Assembly: GCF_003977755.1 (NCBI RefSeq) | Contig: NZ_RQWN01000001.1 | Coordinates: 698,995 to 762,994 of the forward strand | Source: Haloterrigena salifodinae | GTDB lineage: Archaea > Halobacteriota > Halobacteria > Halobacteriales > Natrialbaceae | Direction: 5' to 3' | DNA: 64,000 bases | Part shown: positions 7,554 through 46,348 of the stretch, piece after piece | How positions within the stretch are numbered: the first letter of the stretch is position 1 | Layout of the letters: each line of letters opens with the position of its first letter | Made by a program: the position numbers and the translations under genes | The notes under the pieces: generated by a model | Databases searched by the model: none | The model's input: only the letters and a program-made list of their open reading frames with translations | Told to the model about the DNA's origin: nothing

Positions 7554-8200
7554 AAAACGTCGACGACCTCATCGAGAGCGCGGCCGAGCTCGCAGCCCGG
7601 GGCCTCTCGAAGGGAGAGATCGCGGACGAACTGAACGTCTCCCGGGAGACGGCGAGCTGGCTCGTCGAGCGCAGCGACGCGACGACACAGCCAAGCGACC
7701 GACCGCAGAACGGCACCGCGAGCCCCAGCGGCCCCCAGGACATCCACGTCGATTGGTCGGCTATCGGCCGGGACAGCAAACGCATGAGCGCGATCGCGGA
7801 GGCGATGGCCGACATGCTCGCCAAACACGGCGAGGACGTCGATCTGACGATCGGCATCGAGAAGGCCGGCGGCCCCATCGCGACGCTGGTCGCCCGGGAA
7901 CTCGAGACCGACCTGGGAACGTACACTCCCGCGAAACACCAGTGGGAGGAGGGCGACATCGATGAGTTAGGCGGCACGTTCAGCCGGAACTTCGCGGGCA
8001 TCCGCGACCGCGAGTGCTACATCGTCGACGACACGATCACCAGCGGCACGACGATGCGCGAGACCATCGAGGCCATCCGCGCGGAGGGTGGCGAGCCGCT
8101 GGCCTGCGTGGTCCTCGCGGACAAGCAGGGCGTCGAGGAACTCGAGGGCGTTCCCGTCTACTCGCTGTTGCAGGTCATCAGCGTCGGGAAGGAGGAGTGA
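7550..8200 (+). CDS. gfcR: sugar-sensing PRTase-like regulator GfcR
   Basis: 216-aa protein with an N-terminal helix-turn-helix (residues 5-42: LSKGEIADELNVSRETASWL) joined by a Pro/Ser-rich linker to a phosphoribosyltransferase domain. The PRPP-binding loop is VDDTITSGTT (159-168). It resembles orotate phosphoribosyltransferase but is the GfcR-type regulator known in Haloferax volcanii as activator of glucose-degrading (semiphosphorylative Entner-Doudoroff) genes. In that organism it also neighbours gdh. The start ATG at 7550 overlaps the gdh stop by 4 nt. It may sense a phosphorylated sugar metabolite through the PRTase fold. Confidence 0.93.
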   Translation: MKNVDDLIESAAELAARGLSKGEIADELNVSRETASWLVERSDATTQPSDRPQNGTASPSGPQDIHVDWSAIGRDSKRMSAIAEAMADMLAKHGEDVDLTIGIEKAGGPIATLVARELETDLGTYTPAKHQWEEGDIDELGGTFSRNFAGIRDRECYIVDDTITSGTTMRETIEAIRAEGGEPLACVVLADKQGVEELEGVPVYSLLQVISVGKEE

Positions 8201-8311
8201 CGGGCGACGGTCGCGGTCACCGCGCCGTCGCAACTTGGAAGCGGGAGCAGCCGCCGGCTCAGTAACGATTCGTTTTCCGATTCGACGTCGCCGAGTCGGT
8301 GTACCGGTTTC

Positions 8312-8355
8312 GCCCGTAACCGTCGCCTCGGTTGCCCGTAACCGTCGCCCCGATC
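8312..8355. repeat. two-copy 22-bp tandem repeat
   Basis: Two adjacent 22-nt units (8312-8333 and 8334-8355) both begin GCCCGTAACCGTCGCC and match at 19 of 22 positions. They lie in the 280-bp gap between gfcR and a small lipoprotein gene. No function is evident. Confidence 0.7.
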
Positions 8356-8480
8356 GACCGATACCGGACCGTCGGTCGCACCTCGATCCGGACGACGTAA
8401 ACACGCGTTGGCGTCGGCGCCTCGCGGCTAAGCTCCGAATTCTCTTGGCACTCACTCGCCGGCGGTCTAGCGAAGCCACA

Positions 8481-8777
8481 ATGGCGATCCAACCTACTCG
8501 CAGACGATTGATCGCACTGAGCAGTACGATCGGTCTCGCGGCGCTGGCCGGCTGTGGTGATGGTGGTGGCGGTAACGGTGAAGACCAGGAGGGACCGGAG
8601 GAAGAACCGGCGGCGCCGGAAGACAACGAATCGGAGACGCCGGAAGAAAACGAAAGCGAGGAGGAGAACGGTTTCGCGACCAACGAGACCGAAGACAACG
8701 AAACAAACGAGACTGACGGCAACGAGAGCGACGGCAACGACTCCGAAGAAAACGAAACGAACGGCGGCGGCGAATAA
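8481..8777 (+). CDS. small sequon-rich acidic lipoprotein
   Basis: 98-aa predicted lipoprotein. The Tat-like N-terminus (TRRRLIALSS) and lipobox LAGC (Cys at about residue 25) are followed by a disordered, very acidic tail. The tail has about eight N-x-S/T sequons (NES, NET, NDS), so heavy N-glycosylation at the cell surface is possible. There is no folded domain. The tail type is shared with the lipoproteins at 9081 and 20398. Start ATG at 8481 directly precedes the signal peptide. Function unknown; the visible features fit a surface stalk or spacer. Confidence 0.75.
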   Translation: MAIQPTRRRLIALSSTIGLAALAGCGDGGGGNGEDQEGPEEEPAAPEDNESETPEENESEEENGFATNETEDNETNETDGNESDGNDSEENETNGGGE

Positions 8778-9080
8778 CGTCGTCGAGGTGCGTCTCCGTC
8801 CCGAATCGGATCGCACCGCGCACGGACTTCGCCGCAGGATACCGGTTGCGCTTGGATCGGGACGGTGCGTGTTCCCCTCGAGCGCCGGGACGGGCTGGCT
8901 CCGTAGCGAACGCAGGGCGTGGGTTTTTCGCCGTGAAGCCGCCAAATTGGATACAGATTGCCGTCTCCGTGAGTCGACGGCGTGCTCCGCCGGCCGGCCG
9001 CAGTTTGGCGTTAAGCGGCCGCCGGGAACGCCGCCGATCGATCGAACTCGATCACCGTACCGCCGCATTATCGATCTCCA
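8778..9080. other. intergenic region, no gene seen
   Basis: 303 nt between two same-strand lipoprotein genes. It is GC-rich with several GGCCGCC-type runs. No ORF with a credible start or family resemblance and no clear TATA box at leaderless spacing before 9081. Confidence 0.5.
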
Positions 9081-45077: not shown

Positions 45078-45353
45078 ATGCCAGGCCGCGAGTTCACACA
45101 GCAAGAGCGGGCCCGAGGGATCCTCAAGGCGCTCGCAGAGACGAGTCAAGCGACGACCACCGAACTAGCGACGGCCCTCGAGACGCATCCACTCACCGTC
45201 GAGCGCCACTGCCGGGCGCTCCAGCGGGCCGGATACGTCCGTCGCTGTACGGGCGGCGCGTACGCGCTCGTCGAGACCGACCTCGACTCGAGCGCGCCGT
45301 CGCCCGACGATGCGACCGTCGGCCGGCAGCGGTCGACGAACCCTGCCGACTGA
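45078..45353 (+). CDS. small winged-helix DNA-binding protein
   Basis: 91-aa protein: FTQQERARGILKALAETSQAT, then the HTH TTELATALETHPLTVERHCRAL and wing GYVRRCTGGAYAL; the C-terminal 25 residues are disordered. It resembles the IclR/MarR-like minimal HTH proteins common in haloarchaea. Target genes are unknown; no inverted repeat is obvious in the short upstream gap. The SLC13 gene ends 97 nt before it on the same strand. Confidence 0.8.
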   Translation: MPGREFTQQERARGILKALAETSQATTTELATALETHPLTVERHCRALQRAGYVRRCTGGAYALVETDLDSSAPSPDDATVGRQRSTNPAD

Positions 45354-45691
45354 TCGGACACCCTCGAGCGGCGAGCGACGTCCCATAGCTCATCGCACAA
45401 CCCCGTGGCATCCAGTCGCTCACCGACCGTACTCGATTCCCGCGTCTCGCCGTTCGAACGGGCGTCCACCGCGCGGTCGAGTTCCGCTCGTCGTGGCTGG
45501 CTGCCGGCTCACCCGGTACTTCGATTCTTCCTGACTCGCACGCACATATTCGGTTGACCGGTCTGTTTCGTCGATATCGTTCGAATGTCAACACATTTAC
45601 CGACAAATTGAACGGCGCAGTTTCGAGAATTGTTAGCGATAATATCATTTAACACTGGTGACGTGATGGTCCCGCACGAGGCGATACTCAA
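45354..45691. other. intergenic region, becomes AT-rich toward 3' end
   Basis: 338 nt between the winged-helix gene and a zinc-ribbon microprotein. Frames on both strands lack credible products. From about 45540 base composition shifts to AT-rich with ATATTC, AATATCATTT and similar elements; AATATCATTT (about 45641-45650) may be the promoter for the zinc-ribbon gene. Confidence 0.5.
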
Positions 45692-45832
45692 GTGGGGGAC
45701 ACGGCCACGACCGACGCGATTAGGGAGATCGACCTGGTCTTCGAATGGCGGCGGCTCTGCCACGCCTGCGGGGAACGGAAGCGGTTTAAGAGGCTGATCT
45801 GTGACGACTGTCGCGAGCGCTACAACGTGTGA
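45692..45832 (+). CDS. 46-aa zinc-ribbon microprotein
   Basis: GTG at 45692 to TGA at 45832. Four Cys in two CxxC pairs 11 residues apart (CHAC at 23-26 and CDDC at 37-40) with a basic loop between them (GERKRFKRLI), a classic small zinc ribbon. The N-terminus IREIDLVFEWRRL forms a short amphipathic stretch. The frame is closed by a stop 31 nt upstream, so GTG is the natural start. It is convergent with a second zinc-ribbon microprotein 60 nt away. Haloarchaea encode many such zinc-finger microproteins, mostly unstudied. Confidence 0.62.
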   Translation: MGDTATTDAIREIDLVFEWRRLCHACGERKRFKRLICDDCRERYNV

Positions 45833-45891
45833 CTACCGCGGGAGCGGTTAGTCCACGGCACCCTACCTGCGCTCCGACGACTCGATGTTCT

Positions 45892-46014
45892 CTAGATCCT
45901 GCCGCCCTCCATACGCCGGAGTTGTTCACAGTTTGGGCACCGAGTAGAGCCGTCAATCTGAGTAAACTTCCGCTCCCCACAGTCAGAACAGCTACCATCA
46001 GGATACCGAACCAT
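45892..46014 (-). CDS. 40-aa zinc-ribbon microprotein
   Basis: ATG at 46014 to TAG at 45892. It has CSDC (residues 9-12) and CPNC (27-30) spaced by 14 residues, with GERKFTQIDGSTR between and a basic Arg-rich end (EQLRRMEGGR), the CPxCG-like zinc ribbon pattern. A TATA box (46039-46044) lies 25-30 nt before the ATG and is itself framed by an inverted repeat, strongly supporting a real leaderless gene. It faces the zinc-ribbon gene at 45692-45832, with the sequence C-G-E-R-K shared after the second Cys in both. Confidence 0.7.
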   Translation of the reverse strand: MVRYPDGSCSDCGERKFTQIDGSTRCPNCEQLRRMEGGRI

Positions 46015-46031
46015 ACTAGCTTGTGATCAGA

Positions 46032-46048
46032 AAGACTGTATAAGTCTT
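46032..46048 (-). promoter_or_regulatory. TATA box embedded in inverted repeat
   Basis: AAGACT (46032-46037) and AGTCTT (46043-46048) pair around GTATA. The TATA element of the 40-aa zinc-ribbon gene sits in the spacer at 25-30 nt from its ATG. A protein bound here would compete with TBP. Confidence 0.6.
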
Positions 46049-46062
46049 CTGCTGACACCCTT

Positions 46063-46130
46063 CCCGCGCTGGAGCACGGGGATACCCGCGTGGAGCGGGT
46101 TAGAATTGTAGCTCCCCGTCGGATAGCTAC
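46063..46130. repeat. three-hairpin cluster resembling an IS200/IS605-type end
   Basis: Consecutive stems: CCCGCGCT/AGCACGGG with one mismatch (46063-46080), ACCCGC/GCGGGT with a GTGGA loop (46084-46100), and GTAGCT/AGCTAC (46108-46130). The first two share the core TGGAGC. Subterminal hairpins with this look flank haloarchaeal IS200/IS605 (TnpB) elements as I remember them, but no transposase remains beside it. A solo end or unrelated structured RNA is possible. Confidence 0.4.
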
Positions 46131-46348
46131 TGAGTATGTCTCGGATAGTTATTCAGGTAATGTGACACCGGTAACTCAGTTTGTCACTCCGAGTGGGGTT
46201 GTGTCGCCATCCGGCAGATGCATCCCCGTCCGCAAAAGCGCAGTTGTTCAGTTGTAGCGGAAGAGCAACGCTTTCGCCGTTTATCGACGGTTGAAGGAAT
46301 CCATCGATCGCACGGACGCCACACAACTGAACTCGAGTACTGAGCGTT

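Follow-up and report, generated by a model that had tools for sequence, protein, structure and literature searches.

Two short open reading frames (ORFs) face each other within 64,000 nucleotides of genomic DNA from Haloterrigena salifodinae, a member of the Natrialbaceae; this whole 64-kb stretch is referred to here as the window. ORF+ (45692–45832, plus strand) begins with GTG, replaced by ATG in one relative (G003), and encodes a zinc-ribbon microprotein of 46 amino acids with the arrangement CX2C-X10-CX2C. ORF- (46014–45892, minus strand) begins with ATG and encodes a zinc-ribbon microprotein of 40 amino acids with the arrangement CX2C-X13-CX2C. A preliminary description, made from the letters alone, had proposed two facing microproteins of these sizes with two CxxC pairs each; coordinates and motifs hold up, and the stop codons of the convergent frames are separated by 59 nt. 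The Cys/His patterns are CHACG and CDDC, 10 residues apart, in ORF+ and CSDCG and CPNCE, 13 residues apart, in ORF-. Both proteins are close to neutral, with nine acidic (D+E) and ten basic (K+R) residues in ORF+ and six and seven, respectively, in ORF-. AlphaFold models of both look zinc-ribbon-like, with predicted local distance difference test (pLDDT) values of 88–89 for residues 21–46 of ORF+ and 84–85 for residues 11–30 of ORF-. The metal occupancy of such proteins is beyond what AlphaFold can tell (PMC11241148).

Are these frames genes at all? Stop-to-stop frames with two CxxC pairs arise about once per 9 kb of window DNA, so the case has to be made by conservation and not by the motif. 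Relatives were searched in sets of 100 genomes and of 392 genomes of the order, in which the window genome (G000) has Haloterrigena salina (G001) and H. alkaliphila (G005, NZ_CP084319.1) as its closest named relatives. Conservation with all four cysteines, which the preliminary description had named as a finding that would support it, is indeed found: homologous frames of both ORFs are intact in all six Haloterrigena species of the genome set, and 22 of 23 distinct ORF+ homologues in Natrialbaceae keep the four cysteines, the exception reading ISEAC (L010/L077). Codon comparisons among genus members give ratios of nonsynonymous to synonymous substitution rates (dN/dS) of about 0.1–0.3 for both, with substitutions concentrated at third codon positions. 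It could still be argued that these are chance frames without a product, as they are short and not listed among the genes of the H. alkaliphila plasmid that carries them. Conservation, codon selection and conserved start regions and promoters practically refute this at the codon level, and we give it hardly any weight. As both frames are under purifying selection, neither is inert, and judged by their sequences the two can be regarded as genuine conserved genes. The gene table available for this plasmid is declared incomplete; its lack of both genes fits the earlier remark that they fall below usual annotation cut-offs, and they have probably been overlooked in annotation.

The start regions tell a similar story. 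For ORF- a leaderless promoter on the minus strand is predicted at 46030–46048, where the TATA box TTATAC (46043–46038) lies at the centre of the palindrome AAGACT-TATAC-AGTCTT. The box is centred about 27 nt ahead of the ATG, a spacing that fits a leaderless gene, and a TATA-like box is found 26–32 nt upstream of the ATG in most of 46 ORF- family members. The leaderless TATA box reported earlier for the minus-strand frame is thus not only correctly placed but recurs at the same distance across most of the family. Leaderless promoters whose TATA box keeps a constant distance can thereby aid in validating very short genes by sequence alone. The palindrome, a possible operator, is exact in G000, G001 and G003, has one mismatch in G004 and is absent in G002. 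A promoter and leader role is likewise suggested for 45643–45682 upstream of ORF+ on the plus strand, which holds a TATA region resembling ACATTTAACACT and a Shine-Dalgarno-like GAGG some 10 nt ahead of the start codon. Both elements are conserved in the five genomes with a convergent pair, including G002 despite its unrelated flanks.

What sets this locus apart is the persistence of the pair. ORF+ and ORF- are adjacent in six of six species of the genus and yet are found at three different genomic places. Four genomes (G000, G001, G003 and G004) share the site of the window. In G002 the pair is also convergent and lies about 450 kb away from the orthologous site, which is empty and measures 131 nt as opposed to about 810 nt. 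In H. alkaliphila the pair sits on a 285-kb plasmid in divergent orientation. At the site of the window, G005 and G025 hold 168 nt and 251 nt, respectively, between the flanking matches and no pair; because these two also lack it there, an insertion explains the pattern more simply. The short pair-less sites of G002, G005 and G025 outline a lineage-specific insert with approximate edges at 45540–46300, which comprises the pair and the relic transposon end discussed below. Reciprocally, G000, G001, G003 and G004 have the right flank of the G002 site without a pair next to it; of these, only G004 retains the left flank beside the right one, the two being separated by 274 nt of different sequence. 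The pairing noted in the preliminary description is therefore conserved across the genus, and genome comparison indicates that the novelty lies in this linkage, maintained in all six species despite three sites and accompanied by reciprocal pair-less sites. The orthologous site has a further content in G009 (N. texcoconense, L071), where other sequence lies between the HTH (helix-turn-helix) and SDR genes (L141, about 8169–8944); by eye it contains a Cys-rich frame.

Does such persistence imply that the two proteins work together? They might form one functional module, either a zinc-ribbon heterodimer or a controller with its neutralizer, selected to stay linked. Adjacency in every species of the genus, convergent at two sites and divergent on the plasmid at the third, speaks for this idea. 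However, each family is widespread without the other, and beyond the genus they do not lie side by side, so that a joint function is not required. If the genes were joined once in an ancestor and then moved together, the linkage is explained with no need for interaction, and toxin-like or antitoxin-like features were not seen. We consider a selected module rather unlikely. A bolder version, in which a relocating two-gene unit of about 400 bp moves between chromosome and plasmid within the genus and encodes cooperating proteins (a heterodimer, or a regulator with its counter-regulator), strikes us as improbable. With three sites inside the genus and no neighbouring outside it, the linkage is best described as genus-specific and kept through changes of site. 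The neighbours of the pair differ among the three sites, which disfavours a fixed neighbour as transcription target.

The surroundings at the window's site raise the possibility of a more mechanical explanation. Two hairpins on the minus strand (46051–46106) abut the ORF- promoter; they are single-copy in the genus and belong to no repeat family. Their stems, inspected by eye, pair in each of four genomes despite sequence changes. Over the segment 46087–46051 (minus strand), 27 of 37 positions agree with the right ends of intact TnpB elements from a sister species; neither strand of the window has a better match elsewhere, and three relatives reach 27–28 of 37. For structured RNA, a search of Rfam yielded no match near the gathering score at the hairpins. 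The cluster is what is left of the right end of an insertion sequence (IS) of the IS605/IS1341 type (TnpB). It differs from such elements by the absence of a tnpB gene upstream of the right end: the stretch of about 250 nt between the hairpins and the SDR gene holds no long frame, so no complete element is present. G002 lacks the hairpins, and its homology with the window's site sets in immediately beyond this end. The hairpins are not part of the pair, as they are present at the window's site only; of the earlier picture of a pair beside a hairpin cluster, the adjacency stands, and the cluster itself turns out to be a relic IS605/TnpB end outside the pair. Between this end and the SDR gene, an inverted repeat is visible by eye, formed by GTTCAGTTGT (46244–46253) and ACAACTGAAC (46326–46335) about 70 nt apart. 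On the left side, 45078–45353 holds a 91-aa winged-helix gene (IclR/ArsR-type HTH) adjoining a gene for a large transporter-like membrane protein; the winged-helix gene is also found in genomes without the pair at this site.

Could the pair then be passenger DNA that travelled with an IS605/TnpB element, linked mechanically and sharing no function? In four genomes the ORF- promoter has the relic right end as its immediate neighbour, within the same lineage-specific insert. No such end is seen beside the G002 pair, however, so that the element may simply have landed at the window's site, and both frames, being under purifying selection, are not inert. This origin is possible, and we judge it unlikely.

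The families to which the two genes belong differ in extent. ORF- relatives occur in 89 of the 392 genomes, almost all of them Natrialbaceae, with 1–4 copies per carrying genome; comparisons within this family rest on 46 collected members and yield the pattern M-x-[RH]YPDGxCxxCGERxF-x7-CxNC. Members of a core subgroup, some 42 aa long (MNYPYGRC...), adjoin a DUF309 gene at almost every locus of this type that was collected, and the window genome has its own core copy beside a DUF309 gene (G000:C1:432801-432917). The core paralogue and the DUF309 gene themselves make up a conserved pair (L123:9692-10612 and L027-L043). The window's ORF- falls into a dispersed subgroup (M-x-RYPDG...) and probably represents an additional copy, moved to a new place, of a gene that is widespread in Natrialbaceae. 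A few other ORF- relatives have a second zinc-finger gene within 1.2 kb; these belong to different families, none of them ORF+-like. In the PDB, the best profile match of ORF- is the RNA polymerase subunit Rpb12 (E 0.013).

ORF+ belongs to a rarer family. Relatives at E 1e-3 were found in 18 of the 392 genomes, including two weak ones from other families; outside the genus they occur in a minority of Natrialbaceae. The family pattern reads D-x-x-FEW-x2-[LMI]CHxC-x3-KxF-x3-IC-x2-C[RQ]. Beyond the genus the relatives often lie within longer frames of 75–118 codons (for example L059, L060, L061, L062, L073 and L075), which by eye have a W-x-D-P-D-like stretch upstream in common; the genus of the window carries a shorter form. 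The longer forms have no family match either. A recurrent neighbour sought among ORF+ relatives outside the genus was not found, contexts being stable only inside small genome groups. Neither ORF reaches a Pfam or NCBIfam cut-off. DZR_2 (Pfam PF18912) matches residues 14–44 of ORF+ with an E-value of 3.5e-4 and 20.8 bits, below the 27-bit cut-off for membership; ORF+ resembles part of the profile and differs by having one zinc site only. A viral origin of the pair was also considered and set aside, as viral contigs hold no relatives and matches in PHROGs are weak only.

In the window, both proteins continue from the second cysteine as CGERK, as had been described, and this was taken as a hint of common origin. 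The wider families do not bear the hint out. In the ORF- family CGER is followed by K, L, E, T or V, and ORF+ relatives replace GER by GQQ, GKW, GEQ, SER, TER or NER, with variation inside the genus as well (GQQK, GKWK). CGER also occurs in three of 32 unrelated small two-CxxC frames. A profile-profile comparison of the two families gives 62–71% probability, a score equalled in 2 of 120 column shuffles with just the cysteines kept in place and in 7 of 120 with Cys and Gly kept in place, and the spacings between the CxxC pairs are unequal (X10 in ORF+ against X13 in ORF-). CGERK is no family trait and the residual similarity is marginal, and a common origin is not supported.

What, then, might these proteins be? 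A CPxCG-related class of small zinc-finger proteins has been defined in haloarchaea, comprising proteins of <100 aa with two Cys/His patterns 7–40 residues apart, at least one of them CPxCG, CPxCx or CxxCG (PMC2253796). ORF+ (46 aa) and ORF- (40 aa) fall within these size and motif bounds, and together with the models this supports the earlier zinc-ribbon reading. On balance we favour the view that they are two genuine single-domain zinc-finger microprotein genes of this class, serving as small regulators and joined in the ancestor of the genus. Each protein would fold around one zinc ion, the fold consisting of two zinc knuckles plus a short helix at the C-terminus. Its near-neutral charge among acidic haloarchaeal proteins might point to a bound partner, either a nucleic acid or a component of the transcription or translation machinery, and by analogy with Brz, which controls bop (PMC2253796), the two may tune gene expression. 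Joined in an ancestor of Haloterrigena, the two genes would have remained together ever since, probably by relocating as a single small unit and perhaps also through a role in the same pathway; the relic IS605 element makes up part of the insert in the window's lineage. Further observations weigh against this picture besides the separation of the families outside the genus. The PDB holds no significant profile match for ORF+ and no significant fold match for either protein, and of 14 Haloferax proteins of the class that were purified, 5 were free of zinc (PMC11241148).

These genes add two conserved and probably overlooked families to a large haloarchaeal class with few known functions, and a pair that is kept through changes of site provides a concrete hypothesis on partners that can be put to the test, in a field with few known partners. 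Comparison with known systems places them more closely. With Brz (OE3104F of Halobacterium salinarum) and its class they share the fate of short genes frequently missed by annotation (PMC2253796), and sequence kinship is seen in the Cys patterns only; Brz is a C3H finger whose gene adjoins its target bop. Haloferax volcanii has 43–49 zinc-finger microproteins, of which HVO_2753 and HVO_0758 have nuclear magnetic resonance structures (PMC6562870, PMC11241148, PMC10716476); in the passages of these papers that were consulted, a genus-wide conserved genomic pair is not described. The families of ORF+ and ORF- differ from the Haloferax set in being essentially confined to Natrialbaceae. Deletion of Haloferax genes of this class gave phenotypes in 12 of 16 mutants (PMC6562870). 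The preliminary description saw no obvious precedent for such a locus, which is mistaken as regards the kind of protein: haloarchaea have a recognised class of small proteins that carry two C(P)xCG motifs (PMC2253796, PMC6562870, PMC11241148). ORF+ and ORF- have the size class and the two CxxCG or CPxC motifs in common with the Haloferax microproteins and are new members of an already known kind of haloarchaeal protein.
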